Source: Amanita rubescens
Taxonomy: Eukaryota > Basidiomycota > Agaricomycetes > Agaricales > Amanitaceae
Assembly: GCA_015039365.1 (NCBI GenBank)
Contig: WION01000591.1
Coordinates: forward strand, 1-30,502
Direction: 5' to 3'
Length of the DNA: 30,502 bases
A program made the translations under genes and the position numbers. The notes under the pieces are model-generated. The model made no database searches. It worked only from the letters and a program-made list of their open reading frames with translations, and had not been told where the DNA came from. Below, one piece after another: positions 1,054 through 29,590 of this stretch; position 1 is the stretch's first letter, and each line of letters starts with the position of its first letter.

Positions 1054-4000
1054 TCACCCTGCCATAAATTGTTCATAACTAGTGCATGACTAGACAAAGT
1101 ACATACCATCAATATGAGTCACCTGCCTATTGAGTAATGTGACAAAATCTTGATGATGAGAGTGTACAAAGCCAGGAGTAATGTCAGTCTTCAGCTTCTG
1201 AGCATAGCTTTTTTGCTTGTACTGATCCAAGGCCTCTGCAACTGATGGCAGAAATGGTTTATTGATCCAAAAGGATAGCTTGGCAATGATAATAATTGCT
1301 TGAAAGTTTAAGCAGAAATTCAGTAAATGAAAAGGAGTAATTTACAAACTAAGACCTGGCAATCAGTAGGCTTGTTGCAATGGCATCAGTTATGTACTAC
1401 CCAAAAGGAAAGAGTGAAAACACCTCAACTACAAAGTTCCTTTTCTTGTCTCCAAAAATGGAGAAAAGTTCATGCTAGTTATGTATGAGATAGAAAATAC
1501 CTCATGAAGCATCAACAAATGAAGGAAAGCATTATAAGTGAGGGAAATGGTGGTGGGTGGGTGAGCTGAAATAAAATCTTACATTCTATGATGATAATAA
1601 TGTAAAAGGAAGACATGGAAAAGATATGGCAACATGCTCACTTTCTGATAAGTATAAATAATGTAATGATATCAAACATTCATGAATTGAGGTATGCTGA
1701 GAATGCAGGTCAAAAATTTTGCAAAGGAACTCACTCGCTGTTGGTCAAAGGAAAAGATGTGATAAGGTGTGATGAGACTGCCTTTCACAAAATGTGCAAT
1801 GTTACTCACTCGCTGTTGGTCATAGGAAAAAGATGTGATGAGACTGCCTTTCACAAGATGTGCAATGTCACTCACTCGCTGTTGGTCATGGGAAAAGATG
1901 TGATGAGACTGCCTTGCACAAAATGTGTAATGTCACTCACTCGCTGTTGGTCATAGGAAAAGATGTGACAAGACTGTCTTTCACAAAATGTGCAATGTCA
2001 CTCACTTGCTGTTGGTCATAGGAAAAGATGTGAGACTGCCTTTCACAAAATGTGCAAGGTCACTCACTTGCTGTTGGTCAAGGAAAAGATGTAATGAGAC
2101 TGCCTTTCACAAAATGTGCAATGTCACTCACTAGCTGTTGGTCATAGGAAAAGATGTGATGAGACTGCCTTTCACAAAATGTGCAATGTCACTCACTTCT
2201 TGTTGGTCATAGGAAAAGATGTGATGAGACTGCCTTTCACAAAGTGTGCAATGTCACTCACGAACTGTTGGTCATAGGAAAAGATGTGATGAGACTGCCT
2301 TTCACAAAGTGTGCAATGTCACTCACAAACTGTTGGTCATAGGAAAAGATGTGATAAGGTGTGATGAGACTGCCTTTCACAAAATGTGCAATGTCACTTA
2401 CTCCCCGTTGGTGATAGGAAAAGATGTGATAAGGTGTGAGGAGACTGCCTTTTGCAAAATGTGCAATGTCACTCACTCGCTGTAGGTAATAGGAAAGGAT
2501 GTGATGAGGCTGCCTTTCACAAAATGTGCAATGTCACTAACAAACTGTTGGTCATAGGAAAAGATGTGATATTGATGAGACTGCCTTTCACAAAATGTGC
2601 AATGTCACTCACTCGCTGTTGGTCATAGTAAAAGATGTGATGAGACTGCCTTTCATAAAATGTGCAATGTCACTCACTTGCTGTTGGTCATAGGAAATGA
2701 TGTGATGAGACTGCCTTTCACAAAATGTGCAATGTCACTCACTCGCTGTTGTCATAGGAAAAGATGTGATGACACTGCCTTTCACACAATGTGCAATGTA
2801 ACTCACTTGCTGTTGGTCATAGGAAAAGATGTGATGGGACTGCCTTTCACAAAATATGCAATGTCACTCACTTCCTGTTGGTCATAGTTCGGAACAGATG
2901 TGATGAGACTGCCTTTCACAAAATGTGCAATGTCACTCACTCACTGTTGGTTATAGGAAAAGATGTGATATTATGAGACTGCCTTTCACAAAATGTGTTG
3001 AATGTCACTCACTTGCTGTTGGTCATAGGAAAAGATGTGATGAGACTGCCTTTCACAAAATGTGCAATGTCACTCACTTGCTGTTGGTCATAGGAAAAGA
3101 TATGATGAGACTGCCTTTCACAAAATGTGCAATGCCACTCACTTCCTGTTGGTCATAGGAAAAGATGTGATGGGACTGCCTTTCACAAAATGTGCAATGT
3201 CACTCACTTGCTGTTGGTCATAGGAAAAGATGTGATGAGACTGCCTTTCACAAAATGTGCAAAGGAACTCACTTCCTGTTGGTTGTAGGAACAGACGTGA
3301 TGAGACCGCCTTTCACAAATGTGCAATGTCACTCACTTGCTGTTGGTCATAGGAAAAGATATGATGAGACTGCCTTTCACAAAATGTGCAATGTTACTTG
3401 CTTGCTGTGGGTCATAGGAAAAGATGTGATGAGACTACCTTTCATAAAATGTGCAATGTCACTCACAAACTGTTTGTGATAGGAAAAGATGTGATGAGAC
3501 TGCCTCTCACAAAACATACAATGTTACTCGCATACTGTTGGACATAGGCAAAATTTTGATAAGGTCATCTTTTGAAATACTAAACCAGCATGACATGCTA
3601 ACCTCCTATGTTTATAGGAAAAGATGATTTCACCGCTTTTCACAAAACTTGAAATATCACTCACAATCTGTAGAACAAAATAATGTATCCTGTAGCACAG
3701 TGGCCAGAATCACTCACTTCCTTTTAGAATGGAATTAATATCATGAGGAGTTGGGAAAAAAGAGAACAATGCTACTGACTCTCTTTTGCCATAGTATTTC
3801 ATATAATGAATTTACATGTCACAAAAGGATCACATACATCCTGTTTGTTTTGCAATAGCTTTGAAGTTTGAAGAGGCTTTGAAAAGGAGAATTATTTACT
3901 GTCTGTTGTTTTGGGACATGATGTGATGTTTATAAGCAGGCAGAAAGGAAATGTTACTTACTTCCTGTTATTAATCCAATGAAATTTGTTGAGACTCTCT

Positions 4001-5961
4001 TTCAGATAATAATATGTTACCAACTTTCTGTTGTTCATTGAGTTATGTCTGATAAGCTGTACAAACATCAATGTTGCTTACTTTCTTTAAGCAGGTCAGA
4101 TGTGGTGTGAAGCAATGTTGTATTACTCACTCCCTGTTCATGAGAGACTGGATTGACAAGTCTGCTTACAATGATAAATCAACTCACTTGCTATTGGCCA
4201 TATGATACACCATGGGATCATTTACCAAAGATAAAAAATTGAGTGATGTCACTCACTTCCTATAGATTATGGGACAAGAATGCTGATCACAAAAGGAAGC
4301 ACTACTCACAAACTGGTGTCATGAGACAATATATCAGATCTATGCTATGTAATTCAATGTCACTTACCCACTGATATCAATATCATCAGATCCTGCCACC
4401 AAGAATATGGTGACAGTGACTAACCTGTGTTTCACTCAGTTGTTCATTAGCCATCTGAAGCATGACTAATCTTGTTTTCATGTGAAGACATTGGAGTGTT
4501 ACTTACCACCTAATGAACATTTGGAAGTATTTATCATTCCATATGAAGATCACCTGCCTCCCTGTCCACCTATGTATTGCCATTTAAAATTTCCTATGCC
4601 GATGTACAAAAATGCATACCCAAAAATGTGGAAATTTTGAAAAAACTATGATAATGACATCATCCCATGTCCAATCTTGATATCTCAGAACTTGTCTGAA
4701 CAATGTCAATGTTAGTAAGTGACATTTTGAATATGACCCTCACTGAAGTGCAGATTTAACACAAAGGTCAAGATTATTCATTTGTGTTGAAACAAACAGC
4801 CCATGTATGCTGTCATCATCTATTGCATCAGCAGTTTGCTGAGTTAATTCAGCACAATTCTTCTCTGGTAAATCCATGTCTATGAAACAACATTACTCCC
4901 ATTTTTCAGGAAGAAATACTCATCATTCTCACCTTCCAATTGCACATATGCCTTGGGAGGATATTTGGCATCCAAAACTTTAGGAAGATAAACTTTCTGA
5001 AAAGTGATTTCAGCAATTTCCCTGGCCCTCTCCCACTTATCTTCATCCTTTGCATCAGCCAAGTTGACAGATTCACTGGTTATTTGACCATCAAATTTAG
5101 TAAATATAACCACCAAAGGAACTGTAAAGGAAGTATTTACTAGTCAGTACTAGTAGATTTTGTGGCAAGTTGGCCAATGGAAAGGAGGTAACAATAGTTA
5201 AGGGTAACCAATCTCTCCAAAACCAACAAGTTACAAGATGAGATATGAATTCATTAGGACTTACCTCTGCCTGTCCCTTTATTGAAGAATTCAAGTTCTG
5301 CAGGTAGAATGGGACGAGGGCTGTCCATGGGTATACAGTACCTAGAGGAAGCCAGGTCAGCCAGTACTGTAAAGGGATAGAGCAAGATACCAAATTGCAT
5401 GCAGCTGGTTTTTCAGCTCAGTTTCTGCAGACTTCTTTTCAATGAACTTCCAAGCAATCTCCAGTTCCTCAGTTGAACCAGATTCAAAACCCTGAGAGTC
5501 ATGGAAGATAAAGTTACTTCCAGGGTATGTAATTTGATGCTCAATATCATGCTCGCCTCTCACTGTTATCATTGCATGTGAATGGGTACATCCATAGCAC
5601 ATCATTATCTGACTCACCTCAAGTGATGGCATCAAATGAATCACAGACTGTTCAAGCTGATGACCTGCAAGAGACTCAACAATCAAAGGAAGCACAAGAT
5701 CCAGACTCACTTACCATCCTTGCCATATATGATGGGCTTTGTCCCCTTTGCTACACTACAAACCTTCTCAAGGATGGTTGTCTTGCCTGCATTAGCCCTC
5801 CCAATGACAAGGATGCAAAAGTGTGGGCATAGATAGCGTTCCCTGAGCATTTGAACATGTGTCTCATCTGAATCTGCATCTGATGTGTTAGTCAAGGGTT
5901 AGCAATCCTGAGTCACATAAATTAGCCTACTCAAAGAAGGTCCACCAGTTGTACCTGCCAT
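1054..5961 (-). CDS. G-domain (P-loop GTPase) protein with about 60 exons, including a chain of single-codon microexons
   Basis: A fungal G-domain protein predicted to bind GTP; its cellular role is unknown. The start is ATG at 5961: exon 5955-5961, then 5715-5879 (P-loop GRANAGKTT), an optional exon 5618-5664, 5391-5562 (switch region FIFHDSQGFESG), 5265-5341 (WYCIPMDSPRP), 4933-5121 (TKFD, base recognition), 4744-4879 (ELTQQTADAIDDD), 4620-4695, 4554-4569, 4507-4509 and 4425-4465 (VMLQMANEQLSETQ). Then come 44 single-codon units (1583-4370), and 1424-1474 (HELFSIFGDKKRNFVVE), 1345-1354, 1107-1298 (hydrophobic start, then SVAEALDQYKQKSYAQKL) and 1054-1058 (stop). All listed exons join in frame, giving about 440 residues. 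The join into 5391-5562 is ambiguous: the exon before it needs donor GTCAGA, or must be skipped. One microexon reads TGA. The family is fairly certain, the C-terminal exon set less so. Confidence 0.8.
1583..4370 (-). other. Chain of 44 consecutive 3-nt microexon units (AG-NNN-GT), 42 with intact splice dinucleotides
   Basis: In transcript order, with the lowest coordinate of each triplet. Diverged part: TGG 4368, TTT 4310, GAA 4257, CAA 4188, GGA 4131, AAA 4082, AAA 4025, GAA 3962, ACA 3900, GAT 3838, TCA 3776, GAA 3718, ATT 3665, GAG 3603, TAT 3532. Tandem part: TTT 3467, CAA 3402, CAA 3337, GAA 3273, CAA 3208, GAA 3143, CAA 3078, CAA 3013, TGA 2941, GAA 2872, CAA 2807, CGA 2743, CAA 2678, CGA 2613, TTT 2542, CGA 2477, (GGA 2402, acceptor AG changed to GG), TTT 2327, TTC 2262, (2197, acceptor shifted), CTA 2132, CAA 2068, CAA 2006, CGA 1941, CGA 1876, CGA 1810, CGA 1735. 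Tail: AAA 1642, AAT 1583. Each triplet follows an AG, mostly CAACAG or similar, and precedes GTGAGT, GTAAGT or a relative; 3532 and 3402 have GC donors. Spacers are mostly 45-70 nt. The exons on both sides are in phase 0, so any subset of triplets keeps the frame. Splicing itself is inferred. Confidence 0.75.
1720..3540 (-). repeat. Tandem array of ~65 bp intron-like units
   Basis: About 27 head-to-tail units, most 65 bp (range about 62-75), differing by scattered substitutions and by small insertions such as 'ataaggt' or 'ata'. Read on the minus strand, each unit is GTGAGTGACATTGCAC, then a T-rich middle with CTCATCAC (a CTNAY-type branch site), then TTTTCCTATGACCAACAG and one triplet, usually CAA, CGA or GAA. 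The repeat period therefore equals one intron plus one codon. Plus-strand frames across the array are repeat-driven and carry no domain. Confidence 0.95.
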
Positions 5962-17545: not shown

Positions 17546-18211
17546 TGAGACAAGCAGGGAAGATCGTCAAAAATGATGGTCTGGAGGCTTTATAACAGGG
17601 AAGCGATGAGGAATATAATTGCGGAAGGATCGACACTTTGAATAGAGCCTATTTTTTTCATTATAAAGATCAAAAAGCGACGGTCGTGCGTCTGCTGCTG
17701 CAGGACTTGTTGGGCCTGGCTGATTGGTGGTCTGGAGGCCATAGCAAAAAGACAAACCCAAAGGGTACAGGGAGAGACGTGGAGGGCCACAGGCAGGAGG
17801 TCAATGTCGGGCGCCGCACTGGCTGGAATAGGAAAAAAATTCTGCAATACGTCATTGTTTATTGCTATGTACTGTTGGACACCGATCTGGCTACGGAATA
17901 CGTACCCACTAAACCTTGCTTTAGCAAGGTAATGTTTTGTTTAGCTCGTATGGAATTTTATTCTACCAGCTTCCAGCTGAGCTAGTCATGTACCGGTGTG
18001 AGAATATACGTTAATGTGCATGGCCCAGCAGTGGAATTGAAGCGTGTTGGGATAACGGTGCAGGAGGATGCCAGAAATCACCACCTGCTATTCATTAATC
18101 CCACCACGGTCGACGCCATAGGAAGCTAAAGGACGGCAGAACGGTCGACTGGACATGTATACAATGGCACTAAATAAAATAACAACAACGTGGTATATTT
18201 CGATCGATTCA
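17546..18211. other. Stretch without a supported gene
   Basis: Minus frames 17567-17761 and 17590-17847 (one with RPPISQAQQVLQQQTHDRRF) and plus frame 17638-17985 overlap one another with no recognisable domain. They may include the true 5' exons of the minus-strand gene at 17068-17545. The part from about 18000 to 18211 is the 3' flank of the AIM9-like gene. Confidence 0.35.
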
Positions 18212-20057
18212 TTACATGTAATCCTTTTCGTCCATATCGTTCAAGAACCAATTCGCCTCAGTCTTAGCTCGGACTTCCCCCTCCGTGATCTCCGTTAACA
18301 CCCTCAGCTTTAGCAGCTCGGCGAGGGCCATGGCCATCGCGTGGTGTTCGTTGGACACCCAGGTCTCCGTCTCGAAACCAACCATGCCTCGGCACCCCTC
18401 AAAATTCTCGTCCGCTACTTGCAGCTTTGCGCTCAGCTCCTTCGCCTTGCGTAGGTCCTCGGGTTCGAACGCGACTGGACAGGACACATCTTCCCCCATA
18501 AGCCTCCCCCATATCTCCGTTGCCTCTATCAGCGTAGTCTTCAGCGCGTGAGTCTCACCCTCCCATGGAGCGCCGGCTTGGTCGAAAAGACGGTAGATGA
18601 ACATGGACACGGGGTCCGACAATGCATTGTGATGGAGCTTGTTGTACTCCTCCGTGTTCTTGACGTAGTGGAAGTGGACCAGACGGCGGTGGTAGAGTCC
18701 CATCGCGTGGCTCTGCTCGGATTGGTCCAGCTCATCCATGTTCCCCGGCGGTGAGGGTGGGATGAGAGCCTGAGAGACCGGGTCATCGTAGTTCTGCAAG
18801 CGACCTGGTATACCAGCGAGGAGAAAAACGGGTAGGATCGAGGCGTGTTGCCAGTCAAGCAGGCCCACAATCTTCAACTGGTTAGAGTCTGACGATGTCG
18901 ACACGACAACGTTGCTCGGCTGGAGATCGGGATGGCGGATACGGAAATGATGGAGGGCTGAGTTCTTGGAGACGAGCGAGGATGCGATGAGAAGGTAGCG
19001 TTCGAGATTCTTGATGTGGTCCGACGGTGACTGCTCCTTGTACCCGTAAGCTTCCCTTCTTTCACGCTGGAACGGTAGTAACGGTCGACCGAACTGTTCC
19101 AGATAGGCCAGTTCCTTGCGAGCTGCTGCTACGAGCGCTGCCTCGGCATTTTCGTCTAGTGTCGATTAGTTCCAGAAGGTTCAACAAAAGAAAAGGCAGA
19201 GAGTGGCGTACATGGTCCCCTGTCCACGTCGAGCTGCGACCTCCTTCCGTACCACATATGCAGCCTGGCATCTGGACCGACGCAGAAGCGCTCGTCGTTG
19301 AGCGGGATACCCGTCCTCCCTGCCACCTTCTCCAGGTCGTTGGTATAGTAGAGGCTTCCACCAGCCGGAAAAGGAATCGACATCATGCGAGACTCGAGTT
19401 GAAGAAGTTGACGCAAGACCGAAACGATATCCGGTTCCTCCAGCTCCAGCCACACGTCGCTGAGCTTCGTACCTCTCATGAACTCCATGAAAATATATTC
19501 TGTCTTCGCAGCGTTGTCCGACGAAGGAGAGTAATCGTAAACCTCGGGAACAGGAAGCCCAGAGGAACGGAGGAAACGCATTGTGGCCACTTCACTAGCG
19601 ATAGCGTAGAACTTGGGGACCGTGACGGGGTACGGGATGCGGGCTACCATCTCGAAGCCGCCATGCATGGTGATAAGGAAAGTCCGGTTGAAGCCGCCCT
19701 CGGCGAGCTTCACAAATGTGTCGATGTCTTGAGAACTCCGACCAACAGACTGCGCCGCAAGTCGACAAAGCTCGTCGACGTCGAACTCACGTCTGCGCTC
19801 TGCGAGGCGAAGACCATTGTTGACGCTGAATGTGCGAGATTACGGATTAGACATATACGCCAGAGAACAACATACAGCCAACGTCCTGATGAATAGTTGA
19901 AGAGATCATGAGAGTCTGATATGCTTGAGAATGCACGGCGTGGCAGTTGCCAACAGGCGCAGGTGAAGTTAGAGATTGAGGAGGAAAGATATGCTGAACG
20001 ACGGCGCAGAGGGGGAGAGATTGAGACTGGTAGCAAATTGAGCCTCGCGTAGTGCAT
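18212..20057 (-). CDS. AIM9: AIM9-like mitochondrial phosphotransferase (APH/kinase fold)
   Basis: Three exons, 19876-20057, 19212-19825 and 18212-19155, join in frame to 579 residues. The N-terminus (MHYARLNLLPVSISPPLRRR, then RRAFSS) is rich in Arg and Ser and has no acidic residue, as in a mitochondrial presequence. The family signature follows: LFNYSSGRWL, NNGLRLAERRREFDVDELCR, KLAEGGFNRTF (nucleotide-binding loop), VARIPYP, ASEVATMRFLRSSGLPVPEV and YIFMEFMRGTKLSDVW. The catalytic loop reads HPDLQPSN, with the Asp and Asn typical of aminoglycoside-phosphotransferase folds, and the metal-binding segment GLLDWQHA. Yeast Aim9 is linked to mitochondrial inheritance; substrate unknown. It lies head-to-tail behind PDA1, 320 bp from that gene's stop. 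Branch-site-bearing introns and an uninterrupted frame suggest an active gene. Confidence 0.9.
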
Positions 20058-20378
20058 GTTCCGAGGCCGGTCTTGAGTTATGTAATTTCCCCGATTTACG
20101 GTCGTTGTGTTGACGAGGAAGAACAAACTGTATAACAAGTACAATGATATTTTCTTCCTTAATTACACCCAGTCCAACAAGCTCTGCCGTAACCCGTATT
20201 CACCCCCTTCCCTGCCTCGTTGGTATCTGTGCCTGAACATATGCGGATTGTTTCTTTTTCGTCATGAGTTTCACAATGAGGGCTTCATGAATCGGACAAA
20301 TGCTTAATAAACTTAGATTCAAGAAAGAGAAACGGTAGGTTATTGCATTAAACGTAAGAAAAATCCAGTAGTAACTCT

Positions 20379-21886
20379 CTAATAGTGATGAACCTGGAGG
20401 ACATCCCGATTAGACTCTATGACTTTCGCGGGCAGTTGTCAACGTACCTCTTCACGCTCACGGCCCCTAAGGAACGGCGTTCCGGTTCCCTCGATATAAA
20501 CGTCCGAGTATGCGTCCTCAGGTGATGGGATTGGTGAAGCCTTGGCTTCTTCAACAGCAGCGTCGACTTCTGCCTTGGCTTCCTTGTCGAGTTGCTTAAA
20601 CACGATCGTTATTCCAAAAAATCCAGGTTCCAACGAAAAGCGAATAGCATACCTTGAGCTCTTGTTCGGTAGCAAGGCCCCACTCTTCGATGTATTGCTG
20701 AAGACCGCGGATAGGATCGCGAGTGCTGCGCATACGTTGGACTTCTTCACGCGTGCGGTAGGTCGTGCCAGGGTCAGACATCGAGTGTCCACCGTAACGG
20801 TAGGTCACAAACTCCATAAGGAGTGGACCCTTTTGGTCATCAACCGCCCATTTGCGAGCATACTTAACGGCTTGAATAGTTGCAATAATGTCCATTCCGT
20901 TGACCTAACAAACTCGTCAACGTCATAAATTCACAAAGAAAACCCTGAATCACAAACCTGAATACCCGGAATTTTATCACCCCTCGTATAATACGCCGTA
21001 TTTGACGAACTCCTCTCCGCCGACGTCCCCATTCCATATTTGTTGTTCTCACAAACAAAGATAACCGGCAAATCCCATAACTTGGCCATATTGAACGCTT
21101 CAAAGACTTGGCCTTGGTTACTCGCTCCGTCACCGTACAGAGCAAACGTAGCGGCCTTTTCGCCCATGTATTTTTGGGCAAAGGCGATGCCTGCGCCAAG
21201 GGGGACTTGAGCGCCCACGATACCGTTCCCGCCAAAGAAAGACGGTGTAAAGATATGCATCGAACCACCTTTTCCGCGCGACATGCCGCTTTGACGGCCT
21301 AAAAGTTCGCCAAGGACGCCAGGAATGGTGCCACCTCGCATGACGGCAAAGGGATGACACCTGTACGCGGTGATCACCCTGTCCTCTTTTTTAATTCCAT
21401 GTTCCAAACCAACCGAAACGGCTTCCTACAAAAAGTTCAGTTATAGAAGGGAATTAAAAAAAAGAAAAAAAGACGCGAACCTGGCCAATCGCCAAATGAC
21501 AAAATCCACGAATCAACTTTGCCTTGTACAAAGCGTCGGCGGCCATCTCCATCCTCCGCATTGTCTGCATATCTTTATACAGCGTCATAAGCTGGTCTTT
21601 CGACACTTCGAGTTCCAATTCTGGTTTCTCGCATTGGTAGGAGTGGAACGAGTCTTCGTGCAGTTTTACGGTGAAGGGTTTGGAGTGGTCCGTGGGAGGA
21701 GGGGTTTGTAGTTGGGTTGTGTCTGCGGTGGTTTGGATGGTGCGTACGCCTCCGCTTAGGTGTGGTGCTACGCGGGGCTTTTGGGGGTAAAATAGCGGGA
21801 AGCCGTTAGTATCCGAGGATATGGAAGAATACGGGATGAAAACGTACGAGTTTGCGAGAGAGATGAGCGCGTGCGAGGGAAGCCAT
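20379..21886 (-). CDS. PDA1: Pyruvate dehydrogenase E1 component, alpha subunit
   Basis: Thiamine-diphosphate-dependent decarboxylation of pyruvate and transfer to the lipoyl domain of E2, in the mitochondrial matrix. Six exons: 21848-21886, 21481-21777, 20958-21425, 20653-20904, 20448-20594 and 20379-20393, all divisible by three, total 405 residues, the usual size. [13 protein letters not shown] plus the next exon is the presequence. [20 protein letters not shown] and CHLAIGQEA precede the active site region [12 protein letters not shown]. The ThDP motif is [20 protein letters not shown]. The phosphorylation loop is [20 protein letters not shown], with the regulatory serine in GGHSMSDP, so control by PDH kinase is expected. 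Reading past the exon-5 donor would end in EEVR-stop; splicing to the 15 nt last exon gives EEVHHY, the normal family ending, so I prefer it. It pairs with E1-beta encoded elsewhere. Confidence 0.96.
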
Positions 21887-22059
21887 TCAAAGCAGAACGC
21901 GTGAAATGATAAAACTAGTGAAAGAAGGCGAAGGAGTTGAAGAGAAGGAAGAATTCTAAGTGCGCGAACACGGGAAAAGTTTGGGGGAATTCAGTCTGAC
22001 ATCAACATCAACAAACAGTCCGGCCCGGGCCATACTAATCACTATACCCGCTATCGTTA

Positions 22060-24698
22060 TCAAGTACTACCACTGTACGCATCTCCATGCTCTAACCAAT
22101 CCAACGCAAGCCTAGCCATATCCGTCAACTTCTTATCCTCGTCCATCCGGTGATGGTGATACCTCATCGGACTGGGTACCCTCCCCGTATATGAACCCAA
22201 ACTGCCACTTCCAGTACTGGGAACGCTGCTGCTGAGCGCGCCCCCGCCGGCTCCCGTGTTCGTCCCAGTTGGACTTCCAACAGACGAAGGCAAGGGACCC
22301 GACCACTCTACAATCCTCCTCAAAGAACTCGCAAACCCTTCATCGACCAACGCCTTGCGTCCTTCCGACCCTCCCATTCGAGCAAGCTCACACACGATTG
22401 AACAAACGGGTCTCCTGATATCTGTTTTTCGATCTGTAAGACAAGAGTGGAGGACTGCGAGCATTCTTGGGAAGGTGTTGATCGGACTGGCGTCGCTCCC
22501 GTTGACGAGGTTGGCAAGGGTGAGGGCGGCTTGAAGTGTCACGTCGTCGTCGGCGCATTCGAGGGCTGCGCGGATCCGGTCGAGGAGAATCTCGACTCTG
22601 ATTTGTTGGAAGACGAGATCGATGCCTTCTTCGTTTTCGGCGAGGTTGCGGACGATATTGAATGCTTGTTCTTGGATTCTGGAGTCTGGATGGTCAAAGA
22701 GCCTAGGTACGATGCGTTAGCGCGGGGTTGAGATGGGGCATTAGCAGAGAGGGCGTACTCTACGAGTTTTGTCCAACCTAGGGCTTTCATAATCGCTTTT
22801 TTCTCATCCAAAGACGTTTTTGTGAGGAGATTCTTGATAACCCAAAGCGCATCTCTCCTTAGATCATCGTCCACCTCGACAAACTGTGCAAGCCGCATCA
22901 ACAGCCCATGGGATAGGTACACCTACATGCAACTCATCAGCACTTATGCAAAAAAGAACAGACCAAGTCACCCACCGCTCTCAAGGGAGAAAAATCATTC
23001 ACGCAATTACACACCACCGTCAGCGCAGCACTCAACACCCTCCTATCCTCCTCCACCTCTGCCTCTGCACCGACTTTAACCAGTCTATCCCTATCCCTAC
23101 TCAGCACGTATCCCTGCATCACAATCTTCATCACCGCAACTCCCACACCGGTATCTACCAAATTCGTCCTCAACGCTTGCACCGATCGACTGAGCGCCCT
23201 AATACACTGACAGGCAGCGTATCTCACGCCGTAATGTTTATGTCGAAGCGACGATTTCGCAAAAGGAAGGAGGCCAAGTTCGTCTGCTACGCAACGACGA
23301 ATTTCTTGATTTTGGAGGGAGAGAGAGGCGGTTAGGATGAAGGCGGATTCGCGGAGGGCGGAGAGAGACTCTGCTTCGTCTTCGCCCCATTCTTCGATCG
23401 CTTCTGGGGGTGTGATTTCGCGTATGAGGGCTGCGAGGGAGGATAGGCAACCTCGATTTGAGGCGGATAGACAGAGAGATTGGTCGTCGTGGACTAGGTA
23501 GTGGAGGATGTAGCAGGCTTTGGTTCGGTGGTTGGTTGTGTATTCGTCTGCGTGGATGTTGAGCATGCGGGCTATGATGTGCATTACGGTGTTTTCGCAA
23601 GAGTCGTAGAGGTCGTTGGAGAGTGTGGAGGCTGGGACGGGGCAGCTGGCGCGGTATATATGAGTTGCACTGAGGAAAGGGTGGTGAGTGAGTGAGTGAG
23701 ACAAAGGCGGAGAGAAGCGCACCAGAGGGAAGCGGCGAGTTTGATTTCGGTTGGTTTGGACTTGGCTAGTTGAATAATAGTAGATAGAACGGGCGTAGCT
23801 GCATCTTTATCTGGGGAGTGTTTCGCGAGTGCAAGTGCTACCGTTGGATTGTCTTTTGCCAGATTAGCGAGGGCATACAGCGCAGCTTCTTGTAGCTAAG
23901 GATTTCGTCAGTAGACGCAGCGTTCAAAATGAGCCAGGCGGCACACCTTGAGGTCCTTGCTATTGATCAAGCCACTCAATGCCATGGCCGCCCATCCTCC
24001 GTATCTCGCAGACGAATTGGCGTTGATGGCAGGGGCTTTTTCCCACCTCCTACTCCCGTTTGAGCGAGTTTCCTTCGCGCGTTCTGATGGTGGGAGCCAT
24101 TCGGTGACGGCGGTCCTATGAGGATCTGTGCGTATACCCGAGGCGATGAGTTGAGCAATGGAGGTAGCGGTGCTGGTCGGAGGGTGCGAGGAGAGAAGGG
24201 GTAAGTAGATATCTAGGGAGTCGGTCTGTAGAGGATTGTCATCAATGGATCAAGGGGAACCAGGAACGGAAAGCGGACCTGGAACATCAAGTCCAACGCG
24301 ATCTTGGCATCGTTGCGTAGGGGTAGATTGGCATAGTCGGGTGGGAGACCCCATTGATGAGGACCAAGGAGATCGGCGAGGGATACGGTTATGGCACGAA
24401 GGGCTCTTGTAAATGGAGCACGTAGAGATTGGGGGTCAGTTTGATTGAATTTTGAAATGGCATAGAGGATTGCATGATGAGCACGAGCTCGTAAGAGAGA
24501 AGAAAGAGCTTGCGGAGAACCATAAGACAAGGAAGATATAATATGAGCGGCTTCGATTCGGATATCCGGACCGCTATTGAGAGCATCTACGCAAAGACGA
24601 AGAAAGTGATTATCTTGTGCAAAGTTTCGTTTTGCAGAAGGATTTCCAATCACTGAATTTTTGACATGTTTGAGTTGTGCGATACTGATGACAGTCAT
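22060..24698 (-). CDS. ARMC8: ARMC8/GID5 (Vid28) armadillo-repeat subunit of the GID/CTLH ubiquitin ligase
   Basis: Scaffold that brings substrate receptors to the GID/CTLH E3 ligase, which in yeast destroys gluconeogenic enzymes. Six exons: 24279-24698, 23947-24225, 23723-23895, 22976-23669, 22759-22922 and 22060-22702, total 790 residues in one frame. The N-terminus MTVISIAQLKHVKNSVIGNP is the family signature. Helical armadillo repeats follow, such as IRIEAAHIISSLSYGSPQAL, LQEAALYALANLAKDNP, VRYAACQCIRALSRSVQAL, LRRDALWVIKNLLTKTS, RIQEQAFNIVRNLAENEEG and VTLQAALTLANLVNGSD. A Gly/Ser-rich linker near the C-terminus (about 22170-22260) precedes a last helix (LALDWLEHGDAY). It is longer than human ARMC8 (about 670 residues), mainly through loops. 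It is divergent with the TTC39/IML2 gene. Confidence 0.88.
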
Positions 24699-24759
24699 AA
24701 TCCGTGGGAATAATGATACAACAATGGCTGTACCGCAATGGCCATAGTCTACCAATTCA
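24699..24759. promoter_or_regulatory. Bidirectional promoter between the ARMC8 and TTC39 genes
   Basis: Only 61 bp separate the two start codons (24698 on minus, 24760 on plus). The core promoter and both 5' leaders must fit in this gap or overlap the first exons. The gap contains 'acaatggctgtaccgcaatggcca', two direct 'caatggc' boxes, possibly binding sites. No TATA box was seen. Confidence 0.6.
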
Positions 24760-27342
24760 ATGTCTCTCTCTCCCGATGACCTCAAATCCGCCACTGAAGC
24801 TTTCGACCTTTTCTTTGCAGGAAATATAATCAAAGCTCGAGAGGCCTTTACCAAGAAACCTCACGATCCGTACCACCTACTCGGCATGGCCACATGTTCC
24901 TTCCTCGAGGCTGTTATGAGCATGGAGGTCAGTTCCTACCATCCTCACCTCAGTTCATGCTCACCTCCATCTAGGACGCGGATGTATCCAACGCTTCCAC
25001 CAGCCTCGATGCATCGTTCCAACTCTCCACTAGATACCGCAATGCCTCTAAACTCCCTTCAGCGAGCCGATTCCCGACTGGATTGGAGTGGGATGTCCTC
25101 GTTGCAGACGCGACCGTCTTGTCAGGCCTGGTCAATGTGTTCAGGTCAGTGCTAACGTCTCTCTTTGACCCTATGCCACTAACCGTATATTCCAGCGAAA
25201 CATATGCAGGATATTTTCGATGCGTGTGCGTGCATACCTTCAAATTTCACCCTAAATCATTCATCTTTTTTTTTCGTGCAGAATGTCGCTTTTAAAGTAG
25301 CTAGGTGTCCATATGTGTTGTTCGTTAACTGATGGTGTTCTCAGTGCCAGATCTAAATTTACAAAGTAAGTAATCCGATATCTCGTATCACCAGTCCTGA
25401 TCATTTCTCAAGGCTATATAATACCGTGTTCCCAAATGGCCTCGACTCAGATCATGTCCCTTTAACAGTTGGCGGCGGCGGACCACCATCTAATAACAGC
25501 CTTTTCCGTTTTATATCCAGTTCCAAAGATCGCGGGGGCAGCACTGAACCGTTTATACCACAAGGGCCCCTCGAAGAGTTTATTGTTTCCGGAACCGCAT
25601 TTGGTAAGCGCGAATATGGCCTTTGTCACGTATTCCCACATCGATGGTCTTTTAGGTTTCGGGTTATTCAATCTGGCACTCTCCTTGTTACCGAGAACAG
25701 CTAGGTAAGAATTCATACGTATCTCTGTTGTCGAAAACGACTTACACTCATTTTAGACGAGTCGTGAATATGTTCATTACCTCCGATCAACGAAGCGCGT
25801 TACGTGCTCTAAGGGTTGCAGCTACCAAGAACGACGCCCATTCCGTGTTTGCTCGGTAAGCAGCGTACTTGTTGAAAAGACTATAGTTTATTCGTCGCCA
25901 AGTCTCGTACTCATGCTGCACATGAGTCTATTGCTTCAAATGACCCCATGGCAAGCAGATTCGGTACAGATGAGAGAGGAATTTCATAATTTGCTCGATC
26001 CAATCATCACGCGATACCCAAATAGCAATCTATGGGCTTTATACCAGGTAAGCAGAGCATTTCCATGATATTTCAGTCTTCTCATACGAACAGGCCAAGC
26101 TGATGCGAGTGTCAAATAACCAAGACGGCGCTATCGCTGCTTTGAAAGAGGGGACGAAGCCGGGACGTCCGTTTGTATTCAAGCAAGCCGACATGATGGT
26201 TGTCTACGAACTCGGATGGACTCTCGTAGGCGAGAGAAAATACCGGGAAGCTGCCAAAGTGTTCATGAAGACGAAGGAATTGAACCAATGGTCCGTCGTG
26301 TCCCTAACTGTCGTACTCCAATCTCATGAACTCGCTCTACAGGAGTCACGCCACGTATCATTTTCTCGCTGCGGGCATGTTTTCATTCTTCCGTATCACA
26401 ACGAGTACTAATTTAACGTAACGCAGGTTGCTACATTGCTATAGGAAAGCTGGACAAGGGCCAAAAGCTGCTCGACGACATACCCAATCTCGAAAGCAAG
26501 AAGATTGCCGGCAAACTTCAACCAACAGAAGTGTTTCTCAAGAAGAAGCGTATGTCTACTTATTAACGAGTCTGCTTTGCGGGCGCTGACGCGAAGATGG
26601 CAGTCGAGTTCTACCAGCAGAAACATCAAAGAAGCGGACGTCCCGGAACGAGGTACGTCGAGTCTATCAAGATTGGTCTTGCGGAAGGTTCGTTCATATC
26701 GTTATCTCCGCTATCCCTCTACTAACGTCATCTCGTAGAATTGGGTATATGTAAGTGGCTCCTAAGCACTCCACATAGTGATGTACTAATGTCAATGCAG
26801 TCTGGAACAACTACGCTTACGTCTCGCAAACCGCAGCACGTGAACAAATCGATTTTCTTTCGAAATTAACGCCGACGATCGCACCTTGGCAGCAGGAAGA
26901 AGCCTCAACTGAGACCTTGTCAGACCTTGACACGCCGGACGAACTTGCGGTTCGTTCGCTCCTTCTAGGCATTCTCTACCGCACATTGGGAGACTTTGCC
27001 ACATCGAGGATTCACCTTACGGAGGCGTATGATCTTCGAATGGAGGTAGAGGTTAGTACCTGGGTTGGAGGACTGGCGTTGTTTGAACTGGCCGCTTTGG
27101 ATTTGACCGAGATGGACGCTTTGGACCGAACCAAGGCTGATGCGGGGAATGATACGAGTGAGCAGCAGGAAGGCGGACGGACGTGGAAAGGCGTTTTGCA
27201 ACAGGCGAATCGCATGTTGGACGAAGCATTGTATCTGTCGTCCGATTCGGTGGATTTGTCCTCTAGGTTGGATTCGAGGATATCGTTGTTTAAGGAGGAG
27301 ATTAGGAGGAAGGGGGAGCTCGTTGGGGTAGAGATAAGATAG
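24760..27342 (+). CDS. IML2: TTC39/IML2-family tetratricopeptide protein
   Basis: Member of the TTC39/Iml2 (Mau2-related) family, in yeast linked to lipid-droplet-dependent clearance of inclusion bodies. The start at 24760 opens [20 protein letters not shown], the usual N-terminus. Successive exons read [189 protein letters not shown] and the long last exon (26802-27342: [20 protein letters not shown]). The exons join in phase with short canonical introns, some codons being split (for example TTA AA|T near 25294/25347). The C-terminal region carries TPR-like helices. No signal peptide or membrane helix was seen. It appears intact. Confidence 0.88.
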
Positions 27343-27639
27343 AATATAGATAATTTATGTAATAGACACGATTCAAGGTAATATGCCTCTTTTACGATGC
27401 GAATAAGGATAGATCTGTGTCGGACAGGGACATCCAACAACATTTGAGAAAGAAAGGGGTGTGATATTTATGCTCAGTGGTATGACGATAACAATGGTAT
27501 ACATTTTTTCCTACGTGCAAGAGCATCCGACTTGACAAGAGCAAAGAATACGACCAGGGATACAGGCATATATTGCATCTTACCCAGCACACGAGGCTGA
27601 GAAACGTCCGCCATGTTGTCATCGGCTGGATTCACTTGT
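27343..27639. other. Gene-less stretch
   Basis: 3' flank of the TTC39 gene and decayed sequence beyond the last recognisable piece of the ATP-citrate lyase relic. Short overlapping frames on both strands have no recognisable domain. Confidence 0.4.
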
Positions 27640-28625
27640 CTAGCCACGCTAGGTCTACGAAGCAAACGGCAATGCAGCGATCAACATTGAGGATAAGCTG
27701 TAAATCGATGAGAATGGCCCTTTATGGAGATCGATCGACTTACCGTGTCTTTCTTTGACGTCGTCACTTTTTCAACGGCGAGAGCAAGCTATGGCTGGGG
27801 AAGTGCTTGCGAACGTACTCCTTGACGAGGTCAACACGAAGATCTGGATTGTTGATGGCAGCAGCTTCATCGAGGGGACCACAGAAACGGCTACTGATTG
27901 TCAATAGACCAGAAGCGAGTGACGAGATTAAGTCTTTGTCAGCACGGGTAGTAGCCACGATGGTGTTCATGGCGCCAGAGACGGTCGGACCATGATCGGC
28001 AGTCATCAAAACCATCTCAATGAACTTGGTAGCCCAGGGTGGCAGACCTAGATGTCATCGTCAATCCTAAGCGTCTCGAGATACCAAAGTATACCGACGG
28101 CATATGAACCAGAGCAAGCTGACAACGCCACCGACACCAACGTCCTCCTTGAAGGCGTCAGAGATACGCATGCCAGCATAGAGTAGCTTTTGGTCACGTT
28201 CGTCGGAAATTGTGGAGATGAATGCTGCTGGCTCTCTGATGAGACCGAGTTCCTAAGAATTGATTAGCGGGGGAATCAATATCTGGGTCGCGTCACGTAC
28301 CTGTGCCCATTTGTAGTCCATCACTCTAGCGTACTGTTGTAGACACTGCGGCTACTGGTAAAGTTGACGACGACATCGACATCAGGGTGCTTGGCGACGG
28401 CATCCTTCGCGCTAGTGTAGACCGGAAGGAGGGTCTCTTTGGTACCCCAGTAGAACTTTTGAATGTAATGGCCGCCGAAGGGATAGATCATAGCAGCTAC
28501 AGAGGGAGTTGAGCGACCACAGGAATAATCGAAGTCGAGCATTTCCTGGATAGCACGGGGTTGCAAACCAGACGAAAGAGCGGGTATTTCCATCGAATGG
28601 TCTGTATGACGGGTGCGCTCCCAAC
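27640..28625 (-). pseudogene. ACLY: ATP-citrate lyase relic with internal deletions and frameshifts
   Basis: Pieces of the cytosolic enzyme that makes acetyl-CoA from citrate, in order: [12 protein letters not shown], then (frameshift near 28595) [51 protein letters not shown] and SVYNSTLE ending in TGA at 28321-28323. MDYKWAQ starts at the overlapping ATG (28319-28321); about 250 residues expected between STLE and MDYKWAQ, including the phosphohistidine region, are missing. Next come [77 protein letters not shown] and [16 protein letters not shown]. About 35 residues are then lost before [20 protein letters not shown], a small frameshifting deletion precedes [13 protein letters not shown], and LILNVDRCIAVCFVDL follows at 27697 down. 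It cannot encode active lyase. Confidence 0.9.
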
Positions 28626-29223
28626 CAGGATGGATCACATCGACGTTGGCATTCTCCGGAGGTTCCTCGACTCTGGCATCCCGCATTGTGATAGCAAGAC
28701 ACGTGTCTTCCTCTTGCGGTGGCAGTGAGGCTTTTGGTTTAGTGGGAATGTACGGCGTTGCCCATGTGTTGTTGAGAGTTGCAGGTGAAGACGTCGTTGT
28801 CGTGGTAGTAGAATTAGCAGTGGTTGTCGTGGTAGTTGTCGTCGTACTGGTAGCGGCGGCCATAGTAGAGGACGAAGTCGCGCTCTGCACAGGTTTTGGC
28901 TTTGGAGGAATGGGAGCATTCAAATTATTCGCCGCGTTCGTCCTCCCAACCCAGCAGCTTACGTGGCTCATTCGACATTTTCTTTCGCACATCTTCAGAC
29001 ATATTTCGAGAAGTTACGCCCTGTCCTTCTTTCTTCCGTTTCTTCTTCGCCCCGCCTTCGGATGACGACGAGGAGAGGAAGAAGGGCGGCAGCGGCAGTT
29101 TTTCCGTTGGGTGGTGGATGGGCGCTGGGCGTGGATCAAGGGATCGGATGCGAATAGAAGATGGTGGTTGGGCAGCGTGTGGAAACGGGTCAGCGAAGGA
29201 CCTTCGTAAGCGAGCGCCCATGT
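28600..29223 (-). other. Low-complexity Ser/Thr-, Pro- and Lys-rich frames of unknown origin
   Basis: Upstream of the lyase relic the minus strand has two long frames. One contains MGARLRRSFADPFPHAAQPP (from 29223), SSSSSEGGAKKKRKKEGQG and [20 protein letters not shown]. The other contains [18 protein letters not shown], a run of Thr codons, and [17 protein letters not shown] and [12 protein letters not shown], and runs without a stop into the lyase fragment. A GTAAGC donor at about 28962 suggests splicing. These may be remains of another gene or a poorly conserved gene end. No family is recognised. Confidence 0.3.
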
Positions 29224-29284
29224 CACTGGCACAGTGAGAGTCTGTACTGGAGGAATAGATTGAAACGGGGTTCAGATCCAGAGA

Positions 29285-29590
29285 TCCGGGGTACCCACAT
29301 TCAATGCTGAATGGGGAAGTTACTATCCAAATATGTACGACTGGGTCTGAGAGCGACCCGGTTCCTGGGGGGTCAGTGCAGCCTCGTGAACTTATAGTCC
29401 TGCACGCTCTCGACCCAGACGCACAGTTTGATTTCGCTCGTACCAGTGCCACACAGTACGCTCGCATCGCTGCACTCTCAAGTCTTGACCAAACCCTAAC
29501 CAGCTGTCGCTTATCGCACGGTCACCTGACGCACCACTCTTATCTCTTTGATCTGCCCGCTGCCCTACACACCATCTACACTCCACTCAC
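29285..29590 (+). repeat. Dispersed repeat, inverted relative to 6130-6496
   Basis: Forward copy of the repeat described at 6130-6496. Both carry the order 'ggggtaccc', 'gctgaatggggaagtta' or 'gctgaatggagaagtta', 'gggtcagtgcagcc', 'gaacttatagtcctgc', 'ctctca..tcttgacc', 'tatctctttgat' and 'cccgctgccctac'. It ends about 10 bp before the putative LTR terminus at 29601. Confidence 0.75.

Follow-up and report, generated by a model that had tools for sequence, protein, structure and literature searches.

A chain of three-base units in a GTPase gene

The minus strand of a 30,502-nucleotide (nt) stretch of Amanita rubescens DNA (contig WION01000591.1; this whole stretch is called the window below) carries a gene of a GTPase family in which positions 4424 to 1475 are very probably a chain of 44 units, predicted to be spliced codon by codon into the GTPase mRNA, as two likely transcript-derived proteins indicate for sister genes of the same assembly. 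The chain follows a 30-nt exon encoding MANEQLSETQ (4425-4454) and precedes the exon HELFSIFGDKKRNFVVE (HELFSIF..., 1424-1474), which corresponds to GPLLSLFGD... in protein record P0098. Its first unit is TGG (4370-4368), and its last is AAT (1585-1583). A unit-by-unit check agreed with the initial annotation, which had described 44 units, of which 42 had kept both splice dinucleotides, and a median intron of about 62 nt. In these 42 units an AG is followed by exactly three bases and then by GT (40 units) or GC (two units). The remaining two units, GGA at 2402-2404 (AG changed to GG) and GAA at 2197-2199 (AG changed to AA), have lost the acceptor only, and the frame is kept if either is skipped. 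The introns between units have a measured median of 62 nt (range 46-90), with a first intron of 54 nt and a last of 108 nt. One unit, at 2941-2943, is the stop triplet TGA.

The initial annotation had also set out a competing reading, in which the stretch is one 2.95-kb intron holding a minisatellite. Under this reading the AG-NNN-GT units would be by-products of the repeat that never serve as exons. A 65-bp tandem repeat made of intron-plus-codon units does exist at 1764-3553, a direct join of 4425 to 1474 is in frame, and the inspected deposited gene models omit the array. The same three-base units are, however, found outside the repeat. In the 5' part of the array (4460-3521), which lies mostly outside the minisatellite, an exon length of 3 nt allows a chain of up to 15 units and a length of 7 nt one of 10, while every other length between 0 and 12 yields chains of 0-1 units. 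When a strict donor rule is applied to the array as a whole, chains reach 31 units at a length of 3 nt and 23 units at 7 nt, and again 0-1 at every other length between 0 and 12. The 7-nt chain is a shadow of the same acceptors, read with the second GT that GTGAGTGA donors contain. Markov shuffling of the window array, repeated 300 times, gave longest 3-nt chains with a mean of 1.36 units and a maximum of 4.

With the array as query, the assembly that contains the window (75.7 Mb, 786 contigs) yielded 92 matches, merged to 39 places (best 40 of 230 candidates). Searches with the tail exon and with the P-loop exon matched at least 150 places each. The GTPase family is therefore large. The main set consisted of 39 loci, that is, the window and 38 sisters (36 of the 38 other array-found places and two exon-found loci); two array-found places, on C114 and C61, were left out as near-copies. 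The chain was present in 39 of the 39 family loci examined, which were mostly picked by array match, and there may be family members without an array among the unexamined exon-defined loci. At 99.5% G-domain identity the 39 loci form 34 clusters, and at 97% they form 26.

All loci were parsed by a Viterbi parser whose splice-site scores were set by hand and whose prior was equal for exon lengths from 1 to 40. Exons of 3 nt accounted for 1865 of the 2056 parsed exons. The next length peaks were at 30 nt (34 exons; the MANEQLSETQ exon, parsed at this length in 34 of the 39 loci), 4 nt (32) and 6 nt (27). When each locus was Markov-shuffled once, the parser found 249 exons of no preferred length, and two of these were of 3 nt. 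The number of 3-nt exons per chain ranged from 14 to 85, some loci being cut by contig ends. At the unit 4027-4025 of the window, the parser picked TTG 4 nt downstream rather than AAA; the initial annotation had chosen AAA, and this choice is backed by a K in P0001, the protein record of a relative.

Some chains depart from the plain pattern. The longest parsed chain, with 85 three-nt exons (L009, G000:C79:251120-259456), contains a block duplication with a period of 18 units, and its near-copy L010 has one unit fewer. A few exons of 6, 9 or 15 nt stand within the chains of L048, L049, L027, L030, L037 and L038, as if introns had been lost precisely; some of the 6-nt units of L027 and L030 are themselves repeated.

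A composite of the window exons, used as a protein query, matched deposited G-domain gene models and JGI proteins from contigs of 1-1.7 kb, and an alignment search added few. Two of these proteins spell out sister chains. P0098, from a source contig of 1099 bp, has a tail exon 98% identical to that on C328, and a spliced alignment placed it on C328 in 45 consecutive exons with 69 of 70 residues identical; 39 of these exons are of 3 nt, three of 6, and one each of 9, 15 and 51 nt. The unguided chain of C328 contains WFETAKNRAKSYSHEDHYFAFGYFRGA, which is identical to P0098 across 27 codons. P0108, from a source contig of 1107 bp, has a tail 92% identical to that on C46 and was placed there in 59 consecutive exons with 77 of 78 residues identical. 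Of these, 57 are of 3 nt (32 and 25 flanking one of 9 nt) and one is of 54 nt. The unguided chain of C46 nearly matches P0108, with one wrong residue and one stop at the place of the 9-nt exon. The true pairs reached 52/53 (P0098) and 59/60 (P0108), against at most 17/53 and 23/60 in 12 shuffled targets each, and three wrong-locus controls per record matched 3-17 residues. On both C328 and C46 the genomic stretch spans 3-4 times the contig of about 1.1 kb, so the contigs behind P0098 and P0108 are best read as spliced RNA, and both records are likely transcript-derived, as judged from sequence. Both come from sister genes and neither from the window copy. We infer the splicing of the window copy from the family, for which the evidence is independent of that copy.

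For one of the G-domain stretches of P0001, the best match in this genome is 86%. P0001 continues as NEQLSETK-WFEKGKKESDREIEYDGG, and agrees in order with 13 of the 15 codons of the conserved chain head of the window (WFEQGKKETDREIEY, 3532-4370). Records were also compared with the chain of L046 by using shuffles of the middle only. P0108 and P0028 were no better than the shuffles, 882 and 363 of 2000 of which reached their scores, and were rejected as matches to this chain. The match of P0033 was weak (34 of 2000), that of P0041 was stronger (1), and that of P0098 was clear (0).

Constraint on splice sites, unit length and codons

To describe the constraint on the units, a splice-rule-free alignment was made in which each 65-base unit consisted of three free bases and the 62-nt intron consensus. 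By eye, 15 loci were classed as old and 9 as young, the other 15 of the 39 being uncounted; within a locus, counting started after the first 15 complete units and passed over incomplete units and any unit that deviated by more than 40% from the consensus. In the 597 units of the older loci, about 8% of intron sites differed from the consensus. On the other hand, the four edge positions G1, T2, A61 and G62 had accumulated 15 changes, 7 of them GC donors, where the interior rate would predict 264.3, an 18-fold reduction. Length was kept as well. Two bases were deleted from the triplets against about 44 expected, the introns having 909 deletions over 62 positions, and 11 insertions lay beside triplets versus 416 in introns. 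Unit edges in the older arrays are under purifying selection. This constraint argues against a single long intron, which would show none, and the prediction of unconstrained edges made by the 2.95-kb intron reading does not hold. The conservation of the head codons and the two likely transcript-derived proteins that spell sister chains also speak against that reading, which we regard as extremely improbable. In the 322 units of the 9 young loci there were few changes overall, with GT unchanged and three losses at AG positions.

Stop triplets are rare in the arrays. Among the exons parsed as 3 nt, a count that excludes the 1-, 2- and 4-nt exons of L012 and L019, there were 2 stops in 1843 triplets, one in the window and one in L032. 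Outside the head there were 2 in 1280, against 62 expected from base composition. The view of the initial annotation that the stretch is a chain of single-codon exons is thus supported by unit edges that are kept, a length of three that is kept, few stops, and the two records spelling sister chains.

Array codon choice avoids false splice sites. NAG was used for 3 of 372 Gln, Glu and Lys codons in the arrays versus 699 of 1370 in ordinary exons of the same loci, and NGT for 2 of 311 array Arg and Gly codons versus 112 of 439. The p values of these comparisons are too small because array codons are not independent, young arrays containing repeats; the effect size stands. In all main-set loci, array amino acids are mostly encoded by one codon each, ending in A or T (CGA, GGA, CTT, GTT, GAA, CAA and others). 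The avoidance of false splice sites accounts for part, but not all, of this bias.

Intron definition and stepwise intron removal belong to general knowledge of splicing. Under intron definition, each short intron of a chain would be recognised as a unit, because it is short and complete. Three nucleotides are too small for the machinery of two introns at once, so that neighbouring introns would have to be removed in turn, either successively or with alternate introns first. After each joining the triplet would form the end of the upstream exon and be followed at once by the next intact donor. Such a sequential order is presumed here. As the exons are single codons in phase 0, gain or loss of units would keep the frame.

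The same architecture might permit alternative splicing, in which varying sets of units are skipped and one gene yields many in-frame linker lengths. Nearly all units are of 3 nt and any subset is in frame; some sites have two acceptors, and on C328 the 15-nt exon would begin after an AG that precedes the usual acceptor. However, the longest introns in the two protein maps are 106 nt (C328) and 115 nt (C46), which leaves room for the skipping of at most single units in a few places, and there is one sequence per gene. We consider such splicing-based variation unlikely.

Variable codons and the origin of the arrays

Within the chains, about the first 15 codons (WFEQGKKETDREIEY in the window) would form a conserved lead-in and the rest a variable segment. 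Across 37 loci (L039 and L041 excluded) the head units read W-F-E-Q-G-K-(K or L register)-E-T-D-R-E-I-x-Y, with TTT in 37 of 37 loci and TGG in 35 of 37. A head alignment of 31 loci, from which L027, L030, L038, L040, L045 and L046 were excluded in addition, showed site differences between loci of 4-7% in triplets and 12% in introns, with 0 at GT and 0.3% at AG. The chain often ends in K-I or K-E-I, and the middle is strongly divergent among paralogues. In the window, the variable part comprises 27 units (1735-3469) whose introns are close to the 62-nt family consensus, and the final two units are AAA and AAT (K N, 1583-1644), where several other loci have K-I, K-I-C or K-E-I. The variable segment separates the G domain from a C-terminal helical domain and is probably disordered, as a predicted model of one relative has low confidence there.

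The triplets can vary far beyond their introns. For unit pairs of the same locus with introns at most 3% apart (mean 0.66% per site, n = 6691), 48-65% differed at each triplet position. In six young paralogue pairs (L014 with L012, L013 and L018; L017 with L021; L035 with L021 and L017), introns were 0.3-1.3% apart and the spacers, that is, the triplets, 22-39%, with a flanking-gene difference of 2-4% in four pairs and of 12-13% in the two with L035. The closer pairs among L014, L015 and L016 had spacer differences of 2.6-5.9% and intron differences of 0.1-0.3%. In these near-identical genes the differences are clustered in neighbouring codons while the introns hardly differ, a pattern resembling patchwise conversion.

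Older near-copies gave another picture. Spacer versus intron change was 1.7% versus 4.7% in L031/L033, 2.6% versus 4.7% in L031/L032, 3.9% versus 3.5% in L027/L030, and 19.5% versus 20.9% in L023/L028; L009/L010 and L026/L044 had zero spacer change. Ongoing triplet hypermutation as a general process was rejected, because the spacers of older near-copies change no faster than their introns; the fast change is that between young paralogues. These pairs suggest that arrays are renewed whole or in patches and then evolve as ordinary coding sequence.

A consensus was then counted, without a reference, from those introns that lie beyond the first 17 exons and measure exactly 62 nt; the count used the 33 of the 39 loci that have 8 or more of them. 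The column majority was the same 62-nt sequence in 25 of the 33 loci and one base off in 8, and the mean intron divergence within these loci ranged between 0 and 33%. For 12 older loci, the distance of the introns from the consensus was 4.8-10.8%, and few mutations were common to several units; L025 was the only one of the 12 with a position at which most units share a non-consensus base. A source that stays constant while its copies decay fits introner-like copying better than plain duplication. The exact 62-nt intron has 352 copies in the genome; among the copies placed, 348 are in the fetched arrays and one is at the very end of contig C12. A genome-wide introner is thus unsupported by exact copies, diverged copies elsewhere not having been sought. 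By eye, the ends of the consensus are weakly inverted, TGAGTGACATTG versus TGTTGGTCATAG, which may be a hint of a transposon-like end.

Arrays could also have grown by tandem duplication and unequal crossing-over of the 65-bp unit, with strong selection for diverse codons and no master intron. The block duplication of L009 and the difference of one whole unit between the near-identical arrays L009 and L010 fit this process, as does the somewhat greater likeness of neighbouring codons than in shuffled arrays, seen in 10 of 10 young loci tested (lag-1 z 0.4 to 3.2). However, a z above 2.5 at any lag was reached only by L009, L020 and L035 of these ten. Moreover, duplication from decayed units would be expected to leave each locus with its own consensus, which is not so: the consensus is common to the 33 loci, and few intron mutations are shared in the 12 older ones. 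We regard growth by duplication as possible but rather doubtful. Higher-order repeats as a general source of codon order were rejected, a clear long period being found only in L009.

From the constant consensus we infer array renewal by intron copying. A new array would consist of pristine 62-nt intron copies separated by short junctions, usually of 3 nt, so that each junction would be a codon and any whole number of units in frame. In the 3' half of the array of L019 (G000:C749:814-7799), near-pristine introns lie 1, 2, 3 or 4 bases apart, and 11 of 19 exons between near-pristine introns are of 1, 2 or 4 bases versus 5 of 442 in other loci. It is possible that junction length varies at birth and that in-frame arrays are kept, or that this one locus was damaged later. 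As a tentative proposal, to which we give a limited chance, the family may diversify its proteins by means of introns: a self-copying 62-nt intron would build arrays, the junction bases would become a hypervariable segment, and selection would keep all-3-nt arrays, with G domain and tail constant, possibly serving self/non-self or pathogen recognition.

A number of observations weigh against the chain being real coding sequence, or against parts of this scheme. The inspected deposited gene models end before the array, and one A. rubescens model, P0074 (contig of 976794 bases), joins the G domain straight to the tail; P0074 is either an array-less member or a model that skipped the array. That the inspected family models end before the C-terminal domain is suggested to occur because gene predictors would miss the chain. 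A protein search limited to the C-terminal part found no relatives. The source of P0098 and P0108 does not state the type of contig behind them, and with tails 98% and 92% identical to the genome they could be from another strain or a close relative. P0017, from a second relative, matches 9 of the 15 window head codons, and 9-11 of 15 in four other loci. In the simple chain count of L034, the 7-nt echo (52) exceeds the 3-nt chain (49). An alternative parse found TGA at 12 of 1257 triplets outside the head, of which L012 and L019 contribute 8 and some are due to a shifted register; TGA also stands at one head position (the second E) in three near-identical loci, where the register is shifted. 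Exons of 1, 2 or 4 nt occur in the arrays of L012 and L019, and triplets of the young loci had 9 bases deleted and 3 insertions over 3 positions versus 69 and 32 over 62 positions in introns, so triplet length is unprotected there. An unchanged consensus in the oldest loci (L046, L048 and L049; a majority with 1 difference) was dropped after a failed reference-bias control: with an altered reference, the majority in these three loci agreed with the altered base at 31 of 60 positions, and with the master base at 25. Finally, the RNA-level evidence does not come from the window copy, in which one unit is TGA and two acceptors are lost.

Layout of the window copy and its neighbourhood

Upstream of the chain, tblastn of P0001 located the P-loop G-domain exon (GRANAGKTT) at 5710-5862 and further G-domain exons at 5266-5340, at 4934-5122 (the VFTKFDGQ region) and at 4617-4880 (the final exons, DMDLPEKNC... 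through FPHFW, with one internal intron), all on the minus strand. Together with the sequence, it also placed a G-domain coding stretch (RGEHDIEHQITYPGSNFIFHDSQGFES...) at 5387-5683, with one short intron inside, at about 5617-5561, whose acceptor is ambiguous. A single-codon unit GTG at 4507-4509 lies immediately 5' of the 30-nt exon and encodes V, where many paralogues have E. Downstream of the post-chain exon are a 10-nt exon GTCTTAGTTT (1346-1355), predicted from the sequence and parsed likewise in L014-L016, and the C-terminal exon IIIIAKLSFWINK... (1107-1298). The product has a P-loop G-domain fold of the TRAFAC-type GTPases. A structure search had IRGs in its first rows, with EngB (12.6) and septins (12.2) near, and Foldseek TM-scores by query length were 0.22-0.37 among the top 50 matches listed. 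This search matched the G domain only and pointed to no function, and the linker was of low confidence.

Even if the family architecture is real, the window copy could be decaying, its TGA unit truncating the protein or triggering mRNA decay. In favour of decay are this TGA (2943-2941), the two lost acceptors, and the ambiguous G-domain acceptor (5564-5561); the young arrays L012 and L019, with their 1-, 2- and 4-nt exons, look broken too. On the other hand, each lost acceptor would cause no more than the in-frame omission of one codon, 42 of the 44 units are intact, and the G-domain and tail exons are open. We put decay of this copy at somewhat less than an even chance. The outcome for the window copy may be a truncated protein, skipping of the TGA unit, or decay. 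The intron at 5617-5561 (minus strand) is spliced out in the proteins of relatives, and here has AG and then TG before the conserved AGAGGC; a simple join loses the frame, while read-through or a shifted donor would keep it.

No Rfam match was found in the window at the gathering threshold. Positions 18200-29500 contain ordinary-looking genes on both strands, among them what we take by eye to be a pyruvate dehydrogenase E1-alpha-like gene at about 20.4-21.4 kb and an armadillo-repeat gene at about 22-24.8 kb.

Comparison with known systems

The 57 single-codon exons of one sister gene, 32 and 25 in order around a 9-nt exon, challenge the lower limit of exon use, and parts of the family proteins would be assembled one residue per splicing step. 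Two questions become testable, namely how the spliceosome orders dozens of introns that are not recognisable together and what accuracy is needed per step. The arrays offer a route by which intron multiplication could create protein sequence, beyond interrupting it, and young, old and broken arrays coexist in one genome as a natural series. We found no published account of a chain of single-codon exons in the open-licence literature, seen mostly as titles and summaries, in which the following systems come close.

In the parts of the sources available to us, the MEG genes of Schistosoma are described as having exons of 3-81 bp (abstract) or 6-81 bp (body), mostly of 15, introns of 0.1-5 kb, 10-20 exons per gene, and secreted products (PMC10526429). 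As there, the Amanita coding region consists of many tiny exons, mostly multiples of three and hard to annotate. Unlike there, the Amanita chains have 39 and 57 exons of exactly 3 nt rather than mostly 15, introns of about 60 nt copied from one sequence rather than of 0.1-5 kb, and a GTPase as product. Isolated 3-nt microexons in Drosophila homothorax (PMC7392893) and in RPS24 (PMC12686416) indicate, as far as these accounts go, that a single-codon exon can be spliced; those genes have one or a few such exons, whereas the Amanita family has dozens in a row.

Recursive splicing (PMC8605326, PMC6110457), according to the portions seen, likewise removes sequence in steps, a donor being restored at every joining. 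At a ratchet point, however, the acceptor abuts the donor, whereas three bases stand between AG and GT in the Amanita units; these would remain in the mRNA at each step and are present as residues in P0098 and P0108. Stwintrons (PMC12403724, PMC8469720) are, in the passages available, also fungal introns that are removed successively and multiply. They are nested, one interrupting a splice element of another, whereas each Amanita intron has its own GT or GC and AG, in both protein maps and in 42 of the 44 window units.

Introners, as summarised in the material at hand, are inserted in many genes genome-wide (PMC9860276; also PMC4457414). The Amanita arrays share with them many near-identical introns with intact splice sites and an apparent single source sequence. 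Judged by exact copies, they appear to differ from introners in that 348 of the 352 exact copies of the Amanita intron lie in the arrays of one gene family, about 3 nt apart.

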